A DNA stretch of 64,000 bases from Bifidobacterium breve (GTDB taxonomy: Bacteria > Actinomycetota > Thermoleophilia > Solirubrobacterales > Solirubrobacteraceae), in assembly GCA_945878865.1 (NCBI GenBank), contig CAMCUD010000011.1, positions 62,001 through 126,000 of the forward strand, read 5' to 3'. Both the position numbers and the translations under genes were made by a program. This document shows positions 9,695 through 63,800 of the stretch, piece by piece. Position 1 is the first letter of the stretch. Each line of letters begins with the position of its first letter. The notes below the pieces were generated by a model, which saw nothing but the letters and a program-made list of their open reading frames with translations, was not told the DNA's origin and searched no databases.

Positions 9695-9845
9695 TCCGGT
9701 GCGGCCTACGGGGTGAGCTGACGGGCTCGCGCGGGTGGTGCTCGCGCTACCAGGCGGCACTGCCTGGATTCGCCCCCGGACGCTGAGTGCGCCCAATGGG
9801 TCCCCCGTCCCGCGGCGCCTGGAGTCGGCGCGGCGAGTTCGGCAT
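9695..9845 (-). promoter_or_regulatory. Probable c-di-AMP (ydaO/yuaA-type) riboswitch
   Basis: Read on the minus strand, the leader of the M23 gene contains, in order, the hairpin GCGCC-GACTCCA-GGCGC, the segment ACGGGGGACCCA, then GGGGGCGAATCC, the hairpin CCAGGC-AGTGCC-GCCTGG, and finally CCGTCAGCTCACCCCGTAGG. These match from memory the conserved blocks of the ydaO class (GGGGGACCCA, GGGTGAATC, CCGTCAGCTAACCTCGTAGGC). In characterised cases c-di-AMP binding lowers expression of downstream wall-hydrolase genes. The 3' boundary merges into the ribosome site GGAG. An Infernal search with the Rfam ydaO-yuaA model would decide it. Confidence 0.82.
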
Positions 9846-23850: not shown

Positions 23851-24264
23851 ATGGGTGCCGAACCGGACTGTCTCTTCTGCAAGGTCGTCGCGGGCGAGAT
23901 CCCCGCGACCGTGGTCGCTGAGGACGAGCGCACGATCACGTTCATGGACATCAACCCGGCGACGCGCGGGCACGCGCTCGTCATCCCGCGCGCGCACGCC
24001 CGCGACCTGCTCGACATCGGCGCCGAGGACCTTCAGGCCTGCGCGGTCGCCGCGCAGCGCATCGCGGCCAGGATGCCCGGTGCCCTGGGAGCAGACGGCG
24101 TGAACGTCTTGAACTCCTGCCGTCCAGCCGCGTGGCAGACGGTCTTCCACTTCCACATCCACGTCATCCCGCGGTACGACGGCGACCCGCTGCGCCTGCC
24201 GTGGATCCCGGCGCCCGGCGAGATGGACGAGATCACCGCCGCAGGGGAGGCGCTGCGCACATGA
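23851..24264 (+). CDS. HIT-family nucleotide hydrolase
   Basis: A 137-residue histidine-triad protein. CLFCKVVAGEIPATVV at the N-terminus and the catalytic triad HFHIHVIPRY place it with the Hint/FHIT-like purine nucleoside phosphoramidases. TAGGGT at 23833-23838 lies 12 bases before the ATG. Its TGA overlaps the ATG of the enoyl-CoA hydratase-like gene, so it heads a four-gene operon with two alpha/beta hydrolases. Confidence 0.92.
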   Translation: MGAEPDCLFCKVVAGEIPATVVAEDERTITFMDINPATRGHALVIPRAHARDLLDIGAEDLQACAVAAQRIAARMPGALGADGVNVLNSCRPAAWQTVFHFHIHVIPRYDGDPLRLPWIPAPGEMDEITAAGEALRT

Positions 24265-25034
24265 GCACCGTCCGCATCGACCGGGAGGGGCCGTTGGCGA
24301 CGCTGACGTTCGACAGCCCGCCGCTCAACCTCTGGGACGCGACGATCGAACGCGACCTCCGGGCTGCGCTCGACGACCTCGACGCGGATCCGCCCCGCGC
24401 GCTGTTGCTGCGCGCCGAGGGCCGCGCGGTGACCGGCGGCGTCGACGTCAACGTCTTTGACGGCCTGACGACGCAGACCGGCGCCCAGCTGTGGACCGAC
24501 CTCTTCGAGATCATCCACCGCGTCGAGGATCTGCCCTACCCCACGGTCTTCGCCGCGCACGGCCTGTGCCTGACGTGGGGCCTCGAGCTCGCGCTGGCGT
24601 GCGACATCCTGCTGGCCGCCGAGTCGGCGAAGTTCGGGCTCGTCGAGATCGTCGTCGGCCTGACGCCGTCGATGGGCGGCCCGCAGCGCCTGGCCGAGCG
24701 GGCGGGATCCGCGCGGGCACGGGAGATCATCTTCACGGGCGACGTCTTCCCCGCCGAGAAGTTCGAGGCCTGGAACATCGTCAACCGCGTCTACCCGGAC
24801 GACGTGTTCGCCGACGAGGCGAAGGCGTTCACGATGAAGATCGCCAACGGGCCCACGAAGGCGCATCACGCGACGAAGCAGATCATCCGCATGCAGATCG
24901 CCGGAGGCGCACGGGCCGCCGACGAGATCACCCCGCAGGTCTCCGGCGAGCTGTTCGCCACCGAGGATCTCCAGGGCGGGATCCGCAGCTTCCTGACGAA
25001 CGGCCCCGGCAAGGCGACGTACGAGGGCCGCTGA
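24261..25034 (+). CDS. Enoyl-CoA hydratase/isomerase family protein
   Basis: A 257-residue crotonase-fold protein. The oxyanion-hole segments are altered: AVTGGVDVNVF in place of the usual FCAGxDL, and HGLCLTWGLELALACD in place of NGxAxGGGxEL. The second catalytic region, LVEIVVGLTPSMGGPQRL, has no glutamate at the usual position. It probably binds an acyl-CoA, but the reaction may not be hydration. It is translationally coupled to the HIT gene and followed two bases later by an alpha/beta hydrolase. Confidence 0.82.
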   Translation: MSTVRIDREGPLATLTFDSPPLNLWDATIERDLRAALDDLDADPPRALLLRAEGRAVTGGVDVNVFDGLTTQTGAQLWTDLFEIIHRVEDLPYPTVFAAHGLCLTWGLELALACDILLAAESAKFGLVEIVVGLTPSMGGPQRLAERAGSARAREIIFTGDVFPAEKFEAWNIVNRVYPDDVFADEAKAFTMKIANGPTKAHHATKQIIRMQIAGGARAADEITPQVSGELFATEDLQGGIRSFLTNGPGKATYEGR

Positions 25035-41599: not shown

Positions 41600-42397
41600 C
41601 TAGGCGCCGGTGAACTCGGCCGGCCGCCGTGCGACGAACGCCGCGACGCCCTCGCCGAAGTCCGACGTGCGGCCGAGGCCGCGCTGGATCTCGGCCTCGA
41701 GCTCGAGCTGGCGGCCGAGCTCGGCCTCCGACCACGCGGCGAGCTGGCGCTTAATCCCCGCGTACGCGCGCGTGGGCCCGGCGGCGAGCTTCGCCAGCAG
41801 CGCGTCGCCCTCGGCGGCCAGCTGGTCGTCGGCGACGACGCGGTTGATGAGGCCCCATTCCAGCGCCTGGGCCGCCGGGATCTTCTCGCCGAGCATCGCC
41901 ATTTCCGCCGCGCGCGCGAGGCCGATGCGGCTGGGGATGAACGCCGAAGCGCCGCCGTCCGGGGCCAGGCCGATGTTGACGAAGGCCAGCAGGAAGTAGG
42001 CGGACTCGGCGGCGATCGTGAGGTCGGCCGCCAGCGCGAGGGAGCAGCCGACGCCGACGGCGGGTCCGTTGACGAGCGAGATGACCGGCTTCTGCAGCTG
42101 CCGGACGCCGACGATCACGGGGTTGTAGCGGGTGCGCAGCGACTCGCCGAGATCCGGCAGGCCGTCCTCGGCGACGATGCCGTCGTCGGCCTTCAGGTCG
42201 GCGCCCGAGCAGAACGCCCGGCCCGCACCGGTGATGGCGACGGCGCGGACGGCGTCGTCCTCGCCGACCTCCTTCAGGGCGGCGAGAAGGTCGTCGGTGA
42301 CCTCGTCGTTCCAGGCGTTCAGGGCTTCAGGGCGGCGCAGCTCGATGATGGCGGCGCCCCCGCGGCGCTCGATGGCGACTGTCTGCAGGGCGGGCAT
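41600..42397 (-). CDS. Enoyl-CoA hydratase/isomerase family protein
   Basis: A 265-residue crotonase. Oxyanion-hole segments AFCSGADL and NGPAVGVGCSLALAAD are intact. The catalytic region IGLAPDGGASAFIPSRIG keeps an acidic residue (Asp) where one of the two glutamates stands in hydratases, as in PaaG-type isomerases. It may act in fatty-acid or aromatic-CoA degradation. TAGGAT on the minus strand (42409-42404) lies six bases before the ATG. Confidence 0.88.
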   Translation of the reverse strand: MPALQTVAIERRGGAAIIELRRPEALNAWNDEVTDDLLAALKEVGEDDAVRAVAITGAGRAFCSGADLKADDGIVAEDGLPDLGESLRTRYNPVIVGVRQLQKPVISLVNGPAVGVGCSLALAADLTIAAESAYFLLAFVNIGLAPDGGASAFIPSRIGLARAAEMAMLGEKIPAAQALEWGLINRVVADDQLAAEGDALLAKLAAGPTRAYAGIKRQLAAWSEAELGRQLELEAEIQRGLGRTSDFGEGVAAFVARRPAEFTGA

Positions 42398-59217: not shown

Positions 59218-60807
59218 TCAGCCCTCGTGCTCGAAGAACCCGGCGCCGACGATCGTGCCGATCCGGCCCTCGTCGACGAGCGCGCGCAGACGCGGCGCGG
59301 CCCGGTAGCGATCCTCGCGGTAGTGGTCGTGCAGGCCGTCGAGGAGGACGAGCACGTGGTCGAGGCCGATGAGGTCGCCCCAGGCCAGCGGCCCGCTGGG
59401 GTGGTTCAGCCCGAGGATCATCCCGTCGTCGATGTCGTCAGCGGTCGCGACGCCTTCGCCCAGGGCGAACGCGGCCTCGTTGACGAGCTGCGCGACGATC
59501 CGCCCCAGGACGAGGCCCGGCGCGTCACCGACCCAGGCGGTGTGCAGCCCGAGGGTGGCGAAGAACGCCTCCGCCGCGCGGGCGGTGGGCTCCGAGGTGG
59601 TGCCCGACCGCGTGAGCTCGACGAGCCCACCGGGTCGCAGCGGTGCGAGGGCGTGGAACCCGGCGGCGCCACCGGCGGGGTCGAGCGCGTGCAGCGGAGC
59701 GCCCGCGCAGAGCAGCACGCGGTGGCCGCCCTGCAGCGGCTCGTCCTCGTCGAGGCCGAGCCCGGCATCGATGGCCAGGCTCGGCGCGGCGCCCGCGTCC
59801 TCTCCGGGGTCGACGACGTGCCACCCGACCGCGTCGGCCAGCCCCCGCAGTTCATGCGCGAGCATCGTGTCGCCGGCGATCTGGATGACGCCGCGGCCCT
59901 CGTCGCGATGCACCGCCGGAGCGGGCGGATCGGACGGCCGGTGCTCGGGGCCGTCGTAGCGGTACCAGCCCTCGCCGGTCTTGCGACCCAGCAGTCCCGC
60001 CGCGACCATCTGCGCGGCCAGCGGTGAGGGCCGCCACCGCGGCTCGCCGTAGCTCAGCCGGGCGAAGGACTCGGCGACCGCGAGGTTGACGTCGACGCCG
60101 ACCAGGTCCATGAGCTCGAACGGCCCCATCCGGTAGCCGGCGGCGCGCACGATGCGGTCGATGAGATGCGGCTCGGCCAACCGCTCGGTGGCGATCCGCA
60201 GCGCCTCGCCGCCGAACGGGCGGTTGCAACGATTCACGACGAATCCGGGCGTGTCCGTCGCGTCGATCACCCGCTTGCCCATCGCCTCACCGGTGGCGCG
60301 CGCCAGCGCGATCGCGCCCGGTGACGAGCGCAGACCCGGGACGACCTCGACGAGCCGCATCGCGGGCGCCGGGTTGAAGAAGTGCATGCCCACCACGCGC
60401 TCGGGGGCCGGGCAGCCCGCGGCGATCGCGGTGATCGGGATCGACGACGTGTTGCTGGCGAGCACCGCCGGTGTGACCTCGGCGAGCCGCGCGAACAGCT
60501 CGTGCTTGACCTCCAGGCGCTCGGGCGCGGCCTCGATCACGAGGTCGCACGCGGCGAGATCGTCGAGCGCGGACGCGATGCGCAGCCGCCCACGCGCGGC
60601 GCCCGCCTCCTCGGCGCTCCACCGGCCGCGGCCCACGCCGCGCTCGAGCGCCGCGCCGATCCTGCCCAGCGCCGCATCGGCCGCGCCCGGCGCGGGGTCG
60701 AACAGCAGCGTGTCGGCACCCACGGCCTGCGCGGCGAGCTGGGCGATCCCGCCGCCCATCGTCCCGGCGCCCACGACGCCGATGACCCGCGCGGGCGTGG
60801 CCTCCAT
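59218..60807 (-). CDS. 3-hydroxyacyl-CoA dehydrogenase
   Basis: A 529-residue protein with an N-terminal NAD-binding domain (VGAGTMGGGIAQLAAQ), ASNTSSIPIT, the catalytic HFFNPAPAMRLVEVV segment and TPGFVVNRCNRP. Two C-terminal 3HCDH domains follow (residues about 190-285 and 430-525), as in PaaH/PaaC-type enzymes of phenylacetate or fatty-acid beta-oxidation. The ATG overlaps the acyl-CoA dehydrogenase stop by one base. No hydratase domain is present. Confidence 0.9.
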   Translation of the reverse strand: MEATPARVIGVVGAGTMGGGIAQLAAQAVGADTLLFDPAPGAADAALGRIGAALERGVGRGRWSAEEAGAARGRLRIASALDDLAACDLVIEAAPERLEVKHELFARLAEVTPAVLASNTSSIPITAIAAGCPAPERVVGMHFFNPAPAMRLVEVVPGLRSSPGAIALARATGEAMGKRVIDATDTPGFVVNRCNRPFGGEALRIATERLAEPHLIDRIVRAAGYRMGPFELMDLVGVDVNLAVAESFARLSYGEPRWRPSPLAAQMVAAGLLGRKTGEGWYRYDGPEHRPSDPPAPAVHRDEGRGVIQIAGDTMLAHELRGLADAVGWHVVDPGEDAGAAPSLAIDAGLGLDEDEPLQGGHRVLLCAGAPLHALDPAGGAAGFHALAPLRPGGLVELTRSGTTSEPTARAAEAFFATLGLHTAWVGDAPGLVLGRIVAQLVNEAAFALGEGVATADDIDDGMILGLNHPSGPLAWGDLIGLDHVLVLLDGLHDHYREDRYRAAPRLRALVDEGRIGTIVGAGFFEHEG

Positions 60808-61973
60808 CAGCGGGGGTCCGGCACTAAGGCATTGATGCCCGTCAGCGCCCGGCCGATGATGAGCTTCTGGATCTGGCTCGTGCCCTCGTAGAGCGTGGTC
60901 ACGCGCACGTCGCGGAAGTGGCGCTCGACCGGGTGGTCGTCGACGTAGCCCGCGCCGCCGTGGATCTGGATCGCCTGGTGCGCGGACTCCACGGCCGACT
61001 CGGTGGCGTAGAGCTTGGCGATCGACGTCTCGACCGTGCTCGGCTTGCCCGCGTCCTTCAGCGCGCCGGCGCGCCACACAAGGAGCCGCGACGCGTCGGT
61101 CCGGACCTTGATGTCCGCGAGCATCGCCTGCACGAGCTGGAACGACGCGATCGGCCGGTCGAACTGCTCGCGCTCCTTGGCGTACGTCACCGACTCCTCC
61201 AGGCACGCCTGGCCGATCCCCACGCAGCCCGCCGCGACGCTGTAGCGCCCCGAGTCCAGCGCGCTCATCGCGATCTTGAAGCCCTCCCCGATCTCACCGA
61301 GCACCGCATCGTCGGGCACCTCGACGTCCTGCAGCGCGATCTGCGCGGTGTCCGACGCGTGCAGGCCCATCTTGCCCTCGATCTCCGACGGCTGGAACCC
61401 CGGCTGGTCACAGTCGACGAGGAACGCACCGATGCCGCGGTGGCCGAGGGACGGGTCGGTCTGGGCGAAGACGATCGCGACCTTGCTGTGGTTGCCCAGG
61501 CTGATCCACATCTTCGCGCCGTTGATGACCCACCCGGTGTCGGTCTTCACGGCACGGGTCTTCTGGTTGGCGGCGTCCGATCCGGTGTCCGGTTCGGTCA
61601 GCCCGAAGCAGCCCAGCCACTCGCCGCTGCAGAGCTTCGGCAGGTACCGCTGCTTCTGCTCCTCGGTGCCCCAGCGCAGGATGGAGCTGCAGACCAGCGA
61701 CGTCTGCACGCTGATCACGGTGCGCATCGCCGAGCAGCCGCGGCCGATCTCCTCGACGATCACGCCGTAGGTGATGTAGTCGAGGCCAGCTCCGCCGTAC
61801 TCCTTCGGCACGATCGCGCCGAGGTAGCCCTGCGCGGCGATGCTGCGGACGAGCTCGACGTCGAAGTAGTGGCGGCGCGAGTTCTCGCGGGCGCGCGGCA
61901 CGACTTCGCGGTCGGTGAAGTCCCGGGCCGTCTCTCGGACCAGGTCCTGCTCGGGCGTCAGGTCAAAGTCCAT
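60807..61973 (-). CDS. Acyl-CoA dehydrogenase
   Basis: A 388-residue flavoprotein that introduces the alpha-beta double bond into an acyl-CoA. LTEPDTGSDAANQKT is the FAD/substrate motif, and the catalytic base is Glu in LYEGTSQIQKLIIGRALTG. The glutamate position and sequence are like short-chain, glutaryl-CoA or benzylsuccinyl-CoA dehydrogenases. TAGGTT (61985-61980, minus strand) ends six bases before the ATG. It is divergent from the DUF35/thiolase-like pair with a 42-base gap. Confidence 0.94.
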   Translation of the reverse strand: MDFDLTPEQDLVRETARDFTDREVVPRARENSRRHYFDVELVRSIAAQGYLGAIVPKEYGGAGLDYITYGVIVEEIGRGCSAMRTVISVQTSLVCSSILRWGTEEQKQRYLPKLCSGEWLGCFGLTEPDTGSDAANQKTRAVKTDTGWVINGAKMWISLGNHSKVAIVFAQTDPSLGHRGIGAFLVDCDQPGFQPSEIEGKMGLHASDTAQIALQDVEVPDDAVLGEIGEGFKIAMSALDSGRYSVAAGCVGIGQACLEESVTYAKEREQFDRPIASFQLVQAMLADIKVRTDASRLLVWRAGALKDAGKPSTVETSIAKLYATESAVESAHQAIQIHGGAGYVDDHPVERHFRDVRVTTLYEGTSQIQKLIIGRALTGINALVPDPR

Positions 61974-61979
61974 GGCTGG

Positions 61980-62007
61980 AACCTATCGCGCGGTCGGCCG
62001 GTAGCGT
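61980..62007. promoter_or_regulatory. Back-to-back divergent leaderless promoters
   Basis: TAGGTT on the minus strand (61985-61980) serves the acyl-CoA dehydrogenase and TAGCGT on the plus strand (62002-62007) serves the DUF35 gene, six and eight bases from their start codons. In a 42-base gap each -35 must lie over the other promoter, so the two sides are probably co-regulated or mutually exclusive. Confidence 0.5.
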
Positions 62008-62015
62008 GCCGGGCG

Positions 62016-62381
62016 ATGACCTTGACCCCGCAGCAGCACGCGGCGGCCGCCCGCGAGGCCGGCCATGTCGCCTACCAGCATTGCGAGCGCTGCGGGGCGC
62101 GAACCGCGTACCTGCGGGTGGTCTGCCCGGTGTGCGGCTCGACCGATCTGACGTTCCATCACAGCGCCGGTCGGGGCGTGGTCTACAGCACGACGACGCT
62201 GCACTCGCGGGAGGGCGCGCGGGACGTCTCGCTCGTCGATCTCGACGAGGGCGTGCGCGTGATGGGAACGGTGGTCGGCGTCGACCCCGACGCCGTGCGC
62301 ATCGGCGCAGCCGTGCAGGGCCGGCTCGATGACGGCGGCGACGAACCGCGCGTGGTCTTCACCCTCGAGGCCGATGGCTGA
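62016..62381 (+). CDS. DUF35 zinc-ribbon/OB-fold acyl-CoA-binding protein
   Basis: A 121-residue protein with a rubredoxin-like zinc ribbon (Cys23-x2-Cys26 and Cys37-x2-Cys40) and an OB fold. DUF35 proteins pair with thiolase-like partners, for example ChsH2 with Ltp2 in steroid degradation and BbsA with BbsB in benzylsuccinate degradation, forming one active site. The next gene is such a thiolase-like protein and overlaps it by eight bases. Confidence 0.88.
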   Translation: MTLTPQQHAAAAREAGHVAYQHCERCGARTAYLRVVCPVCGSTDLTFHHSAGRGVVYSTTTLHSREGARDVSLVDLDEGVRVMGTVVGVDPDAVRIGAAVQGRLDDGGDEPRVVFTLEADG

Positions 62382-63537
62382 CCCCCTGCGCGCCGCCGTC
62401 GCAATCGCCGGCGTGGGGGAGGCCGGGATCGGGATCGCCCCAGAGGGCTCGACGCCGCTCGACCTCATCGGCGAGGCCACGGCGGTCGCGCTCGACGATG
62501 CGGGCCTGGCGACGACCGACGTCGATGCGCTCTTCACCGCCTCGGCGTACTACGGCATGCCGAACCTCAACGTCGGGGAGTACCTCGGCATCCGCCCGCG
62601 GTTCTCCGACAGCACGAACCTCGGCGGCGCGTCGTTCCTCAGCCACGTGGGCCACGCGGCCGCAGCGATCGTTTCGGGCCTGGCCGAGGTCGCGCTCATC
62701 GTCTACGGCTCGACGCAGCGCAGCGACGGCGGCCGGCTGAAGAGCGTGGCCGAGAGCTTCCCCGACGAGCAGCTCTACGCGCCGCGCTATCCGGTCACGC
62801 AGTACGCGCTGGCCGCCGCGCGCCATATGCACGAGTTCGGCACCACCCGGGAGCAGCTCGCCGCCGTCGCGGTGGCCGCGCGCGACTGGGGGCGGCTGAA
62901 CCCCGCCGCGTTCGCCCGGGATCCGCTGACGGTCGACGACGTCCTGAGCTCGCGGATGCTCAGCGCCCCGCTCACCGTGCGTGACTGCTGCCTGGTGACC
63001 GACGGCGCGGGCGCGCTCGTCGTCACGTCCGCCGAGCGCGCGCGGGGGCTGCGCGGGGCGGGTGGGGGCGCGATCTTCGTCCTCGGCTTCGGCGAGGCGC
63101 ACTGGCACCGCAGCATCAGCCAGATGCCCGACCTCACGGTGACGGCCGCCACCGACTCGGGCGCTCGCGCGTACGCCATGGCCGGCGTCGGCCCCGGCGA
63201 CGTGGACGTCCTCGAGCTCTACGACGCGTTCACCATCAACCCGATCCTCTTCCTCGAGGATCTCGGCTTCTGCGGCAAGGGGGAGGGCGGGCCGTTCGTC
63301 GCAGAGGGCCGGACGAGCCCGGGCGGCACGCATCCCGTGAACACCAACGGCGGCGGCCTGTCGTACTGCCATCCCGGCATGTACGGCATCTTCACGCTCA
63401 TCGAGGCGACCCGGCAGCTGCGCGGCGAGGCCGGCGACCGGCAGGTCCCCGGTGCGGAGATCGCGCTGGCGCACGGCAACGGCGCCGTGCTCAGCGCCCA
63501 GTCCACCGTGATCCTGGGAACCGACGCCGCGGCATAG
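62374..63537 (+). CDS. Thiolase-like protein (SCP-x/lipid-transfer type), active-site cysteine not seen
   Basis: A 387-residue thiolase-fold protein. The usual NxACASG region reads NLGGASFLSH, with Ser in place of the nucleophile Cys, as in aldolase/SCP-x partners of DUF35 proteins. HPGMYGIFTLIEATRQLRG and HGNGAVLSAQST segments are kept. It could do a retro-aldol or thiolytic cleavage with the DUF35 protein as partner. Start ATG 62374 lies inside the DUF35 end. Its TAG stop begins the -10 of the next gene. Confidence 0.85.
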   Translation: MADPLRAAVAIAGVGEAGIGIAPEGSTPLDLIGEATAVALDDAGLATTDVDALFTASAYYGMPNLNVGEYLGIRPRFSDSTNLGGASFLSHVGHAAAAIVSGLAEVALIVYGSTQRSDGGRLKSVAESFPDEQLYAPRYPVTQYALAAARHMHEFGTTREQLAAVAVAARDWGRLNPAAFARDPLTVDDVLSSRMLSAPLTVRDCCLVTDGAGALVVTSAERARGLRGAGGGAIFVLGFGEAHWHRSISQMPDLTVTAATDSGARAYAMAGVGPGDVDVLELYDAFTINPILFLEDLGFCGKGEGGPFVAEGRTSPGGTHPVNTNGGGLSYCHPGMYGIFTLIEATRQLRGEAGDRQVPGAEIALAHGNGAVLSAQSTVILGTDAAA

Positions 63538-63540: not shown

Positions 63541-63548
63541 CGGTGGCC

Positions 63549-63800
63549 GTGGACTTCGGCACCGGCATGCTGCTGCTGTTCGTCGCGTTCTTCGTCGCGA
63601 TCCTGCTGCTCGGGGTGTTCCACCCCAAGTCCGGCGCCGACGTGCTGCGCTGGCAGCCGACCCGGGCGCCCGAGCAGGACGCCATCGACGAGCTCGAAGA
63701 CCTCGAGCAGCTGCTCGAGGCGACGAACGCCAGGCGCCGCGCGCGCGGCGCGCCGGAGCGGACGGTCCAAGACGTCGAAGACGAGCTGCGCGGAGGCTGA
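63549..63800 (+). CDS. Small membrane-anchored protein of unknown function
   Basis: An 83-residue protein with one N-terminal membrane helix (MLLLFVAFFVAILLLGVF), a short HPKSGADVLRWQP segment and a charged helical tail (EDLEQLLEATNARRRARGAP). GTG at 63549 fits the TAGACT spacing better than GTG 63543. Function unknown; it lies eight bases before the next gene. Confidence 0.6.
   Translation: MDFGTGMLLLFVAFFVAILLLGVFHPKSGADVLRWQPTRAPEQDAIDELEDLEQLLEATNARRRARGAPERTVQDVEDELRGG

Follow-up and report, generated by a model that had tools for sequence, protein, structure and literature searches.

Several thiolase-fold proteins act with, or are encoded beside, a DUF35 partner, and not all of them are thiolases. 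The closest described to the pair considered here are the steroid C3 side-chain aldolase TcLtp2-ChsH2 (6OK1), the bile-acid C5 side-chain aldolase CtSal-CtShy (9MYR), the ibuprofen "thiolase" IpfDE of Rhizorhabdus wittichii pIBU218, and the benzoylsuccinyl-coenzyme A (CoA) thiolase BbsAB (7PXP), together with a putative thiolase of Sphaerobacter thermophilus with a crystal structure (4U4E). According to excerpts of PMC12329534, the catalytic base and acid are Tyr294 and Tyr344 in Ltp2 and Tyr302 and Cys304 in Sal, where replacement of Cys304 by Ala, Ser, or His abolished activity. Excerpts of PMC9195938 and PMC11347016 credit IpfDE with releasing propionyl-CoA and isobutylcatechol in the ibuprofen pathway, and an ipfD transposon mutant did not grow on ibuprofen (excerpts of PMC9195938). 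We examined a DUF35/thiolase-fold gene pair in a 64,000-nucleotide stretch of contig CAMCUD010000011.1 (assembly GCA_945878865.1, positions 62,001 to 126,000; GTDB order Solirubrobacterales), hereafter the window. Judged from sequence, the pair is probably a two-subunit, DUF35-dependent acyl-CoA retro-aldolase with a Tyr-His pair, and not a thiolase. Positions are those of the window:

62016-62381, plus strand: DUF35 protein (zf-ChsH2 zinc ribbon and OB fold, from Pfam), 121 aa, putative partner subunit
62374-63537, plus strand: thiolase-fold protein of the PRK06158 subfamily, 387 aa, predicted retro-aldolase subunit (NCBIfam, PDB match, alignment, tree, and model)

Active site and phylogeny of the thiolase-fold protein

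The thiolase-fold protein matched NF004811 (NCBIfam PRK06158) with 578.9 bits against a cut-off of 421, followed by PRK08142 (333), PRK06064 (224), PRK07855 (223), and BbsB (148). All 44 members of a first alignment, the window protein included, matched PRK06158, which carries the NCBIfam name "acetyl-CoA acetyltransferase". The PDB match was to 4U4E (E 2.7e-111), and the nearest named genome among the hits was that of Svornostia abyssi (86% identity). We set the gene start at 62374, where it shares eight nucleotides with the DUF35 stop (ATGGCTGA); a longer open reading frame would open at 62329.

Active-site residues were compared in a family alignment of 113 rows. It omits rows containing X and matches shorter than about 300 aa, and a few genes appear in it twice (L051/L070, L054/L083). 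The column of the thiolase nucleophile Cys held Gly in all 113 rows (window Gly85). The preliminary description had placed a Ser there, which has to be corrected; Ser87 lies two residues further. The HDxF His column likewise held Tyr without exception (113 rows; window Tyr283), and the column two past it was Ala in 109, Ser in three, and Cys in one (window Ala285, giving the motif YDAF). The His of the GHP motif was kept in 111 rows (window His333). Of the residues of SCP-2, FadA, and BbsB type thiolases, the protein thus has the GHP His and lacks the nucleophile Cys, and it has Tyr283 for the HDxF His of the SCP-2 and BbsB types.

The alignment columns reproduce the published numbers for TcLtp2 (Tyr294, His296, and Tyr344) and CtSal (Gly89, Tyr302, Cys304, and Gln352), the latter as chain index minus 24 to match PMC12329534. 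TcLtp2 shares with the window protein the absent nucleophile, the base Tyr (Tyr294 for Tyr283), and the DUF35 partner, but it has a YDHF motif with His296 where the window has Ala285, an acid Tyr344 where the window has His333, and 34% identity. In CtSal the Cys is likewise replaced by Gly, Tyr302 corresponds to Tyr283, and there is a DUF35 partner; the protein differs in its essential Cys304 (within YDCY; window Ala285), in Gln352 (window His333), and in a DUF35 domain fused to a hydratase in CtShy, at 37% identity. 4U4E was closer in sequence (54% identity over aligned columns), with Gly at the Cys place, the YDxF Tyr, and the HP His, and differing by YDSF against YDAF. PRK06158 proteins therefore keep the base Tyr, are without both known acids, and keep a His at the position of the Ltp2 acid. 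Since the CtSal C304A variant was inactive and PRK06158 has Ala285, another acid must work. IpfD resembles the window protein in its DUF35 partner, Gly at the Cys place, and YDAF motif but has Tyr at the His333 place, its DUF35 gene downstream rather than upstream, and a position outside the PRK06158 clade; with its genetic link to such a cleavage, it indicates that Ala two past the Tyr occurs in such a pair. A second DUF35/lipid-transfer pair on pIBU218 (L166, 938-2502) is 59% identical to TcLtp2 and of the YDHF type.

Loss of the Cys and replacement of the HDxF His covaried across 115 rows from PRK06158 and related families (three genes re-fetched: L212/L005, L233/L002, and L221/L193). All 86 Cys-less rows had Tyr in the HDxF column, and the 29 Cys rows had His in 25 and Tyr in four. 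IQ-TREE was run on 85 sequences over 370 columns; L008 was left out, and one in three of the full-length family rows was kept. A branch of length 0.61 with support 100 split 80 Cys-less sequences from five Cys thiolases. The window protein fell in a PRK06158 clade of 41 sequences (support 100), which includes 4U4E, L193, and L203, and outside the Sal clade (five sequences) and the Ltp2 core (15 sequences), each also with support 100. Named beforehand as refuting were clustering with SCP-2 or FadA thiolases and a Cys at the aligned place; neither was seen, in a tree built without FadA-type thiolases. The earlier view of the pair as a DUF35/thiolase-fold set that has lost the nucleophile thus stands, with a place on the Ltp2/Sal aldolase side, and the features shared by DUF35-partnered thiolase-fold aldolases (lost Cys, kept base Tyr, Cys-less side of the tree, adjacent DUF35 gene) are found here. 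Among other relatives, L220, L223, and L232 combine YDLS with a Cys, and L226, L228, and L229 combine YDPF with the absence of the Cys and Asn at the His333 place.

BbsAB, which the preliminary description had named for comparison, shares the fold, the DUF35 partner, and the GHP His. BbsB nevertheless keeps the nucleophile Cys85 and the His281 of HDAF and lies on the far side of the tree, and a BbsAB-like thiolase was rejected on both grounds.

The single-chain AlphaFold model, made with a 44-sequence alignment, had a mean predicted local distance difference test (pLDDT) score of 86.9 and a predicted template modelling score of 0.90. Foldseek placed 4u4e as the best match, then Sal and Ltp2. 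VIA Z values were 51.1 for Ltp2 (6ok1) and Sal (9myr), 50.6 for 4u4e and for TbSLP of Trypanosoma, 50.4 for an archaeal thiolase, 45.0 for BbsB, about 44 to 45 for SCP-2 thiolases, and about 34 to 35 for biosynthetic thiolases.

The DUF35 partner and the gene neighborhood

The window DUF35 protein matched OB_ChsH2_C (4.2e-12) and zf-ChsH2 (3.9e-06) and has four Cys, at 23, 26, 37, and 40. In 109 of 110 loci a DUF35 gene was the same-strand neighbor of the thiolase-fold gene (79/80 in named genomes, 20/20 in the order, and 10/10 on plasmids). All four zinc ligands were present in 44 of 111 DUF35 partners, as in the window, none in 41, and one in 26; these sequences suggest that many partners have lost the zinc finger and yet kept the pairing. 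Two tandem PRK06158-type genes stand behind one DUF35 gene in L076 (from 10001) and L081 (8834-11146). Directly 3' of the window pair, at 63543-63800 on the plus strand, is a gene for a protein of 85 aa that is hydrophobic over a stretch at its N terminus and has no Pfam match; its homologs (47-77% identity) are also found 3' of the pair in L050, L051/L070, and L071.

Neighboring functions were counted in those 54 named-genome loci that had flanks of 5 kb or more on each side, the only control being the fall of density with distance. Within 5 kb, a MaoC or crotonase hydratase was found in 27 loci, a CoA ligase or CoA-transferase in 29, an acyl-CoA dehydrogenase in 18, and a 3-hydroxyacyl-CoA dehydrogenase in four. 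Hydratase, ligase, and CoA-transferase densities dropped with distance from the pair. Short-chain dehydrogenases gave 10 matches within 2.5 kb and 19 at 2.5-5 kb. Relatives, not all of them PRK06158, were found in 342 plasmid records at an E cut-off of 1e-30. In most annotated plasmid loci, MaoC, CaiB/BaiF, or acyl-CoA dehydrogenase genes stand beside the pair; because the class query proteins came from those loci, counts there are circular and were not used as evidence. Sal-like and other Cys-less relatives showed the same gene syntax as the plasmid loci. In L127, four consecutive MaoC-like hydratase matches stand next to the pair.

In the window's own genome (96% complete), MaoC hydratases matched PF01575 at nine places and PF13452 at six, none in the window. 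The DUF35 protein of the pair was the only OB_ChsH2_C match and no ChsH2-type MaoC-DUF35 protein was found besides it, so a sterol side-chain (igr-type) role in this genome was rejected. A profile search with TIGR03213, which we take to be an extradiol dioxygenase family and a marker of ring cleavage, gave one match below the cut-off and is weak evidence either way.

The adjoining dehydrogenase genes

Two dehydrogenase genes face the pair:

59218-60807, minus strand: 3-hydroxyacyl-CoA dehydrogenase (HAD), PaaH-like, 529 aa (Pfam 3HCDH_N and 3HCDH)
60807-61973, minus strand: acyl-CoA dehydrogenase (ACAD), 388 aa (Pfam Acyl-CoA_dh_N/M/1)
61974-62015, no strand: 42-bp gap between the divergent ACAD and DUF35 start codons (sequence)

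The ACAD stop and HAD start share one nucleotide (TGATG). Coordinates and families bear out the earlier account of four genes at this place: all four proteins gave strong Pfam matches, and three (all except DUF35) gave NCBIfam matches. Also upheld is its remark that the cluster lacks a hydratase; crotonase-family genes are present in the window at 24132-25034 (plus strand) and 41600-42397 (minus strand).

The same account had joined both gene pairs in one module. We compared 20 pair loci of the order, with up to ~10 kb fetched per side, and window-like HAD and ACAD genes adjoined the pair only in two loci of the same genus; both other genomes of the genus that were examined have the same divergent order. 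HAD matches at E up to 1e-100 occurred in 37 of 121 genomes of the order, the window's own included. In the loci fetched for the best non-self HAD hits, ACAD adjoined HAD in all five from other genera, and the ~300-350 bases past ACAD held no DUF35 or thiolase-like match (the window DUF35 gene starts 42 bases past). Eight genomes outside the genus have both HAD and the pair, linked in none: the two are far apart on a single contig in G005 and G113 and on different contigs in G103, G115, G014, G025, G024, and G070. No ACAD at E 1e-120 was found in G024 and G070. ACAD-HAD is thus an ordinary beta-oxidation unit of two genes that stands by itself in the order. Its divergent placement beside the pair characterizes the genus and is not evidence of a single pathway. 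Within the genus, the two gene pairs may be co-regulated.

The single-module reading was rejected on these grounds. In its pathway form, ACAD, a distant hydratase, HAD, and the pair would together degrade a branched or aromatic acyl-CoA, with the pair performing the last cleavage. The short gap between divergent starts and the conserved order in the genus speak for such a route, as do HAD homologs near the pair in four of the 54 named loci and, in L085 (a Solirubrobacterales metagenome-assembled genome), a partial ACAD that lies downstream of the pair and has 80% identity to the window ACAD. Against it stand the independence of ACAD-HAD elsewhere in the order and its chemistry: the HAD product would be a 3-ketoacyl-CoA, whose thiolysis depends on Cys, so a Cys-less thiolase-fold protein could not cleave it by the known route. 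We consider this pathway, which the preliminary description had proposed, quite unlikely.

Proposed reaction and its alternatives

In the retro-aldolase reading, a MaoC-type or crotonase hydratase encoded elsewhere would make a 3-hydroxyacyl-CoA, the 3-hydroxyl of which would lie against the Gly85 backbone, where thiolases carry Cys. Tyr283 would accept the hydroxyl proton, the C2-C3 bond would break to give an aldehyde or ketone and an acyl-CoA enolate, and His333, the retained GHP His of thiolases at the place of Ltp2 Tyr344, would protonate the enolate to acetyl-CoA or propionyl-CoA. The role of the DUF35 partner would be to shape the cleft for the substrate, as it is reported to do in Ltp2 and Sal, and the ACAD-HAD unit would adjoin the pair by chance in this genus. 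The comparisons establish how the genes lie, which residues are conserved, where the protein sits in the tree, and that ACAD-HAD is a separate unit; from them we infer the activity, the roles of Tyr and His, the substrate, and the formation of a complex.

Several observations weigh against this reading. That His333 could be the acid is suggested by its aligned position, and residues 326-334 of the model have a pLDDT under 50, so that His333 is not placed. PRK06158 has Ala where Sal needs its Cys304 (C304A inactive, excerpts of PMC12329534). The top rows of the VIA comparison, which include TbSLP and an archaeal thiolase beside the aldolases, are tied in Z, and the branching order of PRK06158, the Ltp2 group, and Sal is weakly supported (63 and 56). 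No recognized hydratase was found within 5 kb in 27 of the 54 named loci, eight of the 54 had none of the classes sought, and none of the 80 loci from named genomes had an aldehyde dehydrogenase match at this distance. Literature searches found no functional paper for PRK06158 and no known activity for the members found here; those for the set of zinc ribbon, OB fold, and thiolase and for 4U4E with thiolase also returned nothing.

Conserved cysteines add a further point, as Cys206 (113/113 rows) and Cys300 (110/113) could, with Cys332 (79/113), provide a displaced nucleophile for a true thiolase. The NCBIfam name and the kept GHP His would agree with that annotation, yet the replacement of the nucleophile by Gly and of the activating His by Tyr throughout the family, the presence of Cys206 and Cys300 as Cys in the aldolase Ltp2 too, and the variability of Cys332 make it the most improbable of the readings. 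A malonyl-type decarboxylase, or a thiolase-like protein close to inactive, is suggested by TbSLP, which has YDCF, is without the nucleophile Cys, tied with Ltp2 and Sal in the fold comparison, and slowly decarboxylates malonyl-CoA (excerpts of PMC12329534); strict conservation of the Tyr and His argues against decay, and we regard this as very unlikely. The pair might instead run in reverse, joining an aldehyde or ketone to an acyl-CoA by aldol synthesis, or carry out another Cys-free C-C reaction comparable to C-acylation by the DUF35-partnered PhlABC. Fold and DUF35 partnership are common to PhlC complexes, and CoA ligases or CoA-transferases lie near the pair in 29 of the 54 loci. The PhlC match was, however, much weaker than that to Ltp2 (E 2.9e-20 vs. 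4.2e-44), and neighborhoods in which ACAD, hydratase, and transporter genes occur have a catabolic look; this reading is unlikely as well.

PRK06158-DUF35 pairs, which databases label thiolase or acetyl-CoA acetyltransferase, are present in Actinobacteria as well as in Alpha-, Beta-, and Gammaproteobacteria. It is conceivable, with the chances slightly below even, that they form a large third class of thiolase-fold retro-aldolases, with Tyr-His in place of the Tyr-Tyr of Ltp2 and the Tyr-Cys of Sal. Their substrates would be non-steroid 3-hydroxyacyl-CoAs, perhaps ones in which a tertiary or otherwise unoxidizable carbon 3 blocks ordinary beta-oxidation. If so, many genes labeled acetyl-CoA acetyltransferase or thiolase would be misnamed, and catabolic clusters with a hydratase and no HAD would gain a chain-cutting step. 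The changed Tyr-His active site is a sharp prediction, and the crystal structure 4U4E offers a relative in which to consider it.

Near the pair, neither the Rfam nor the tRNA scan had a match. Elsewhere in the window, at 9704-9829 on the minus strand, a c-di-AMP riboswitch (RF00379) scored 46.6 bits against a gathering threshold of 38.

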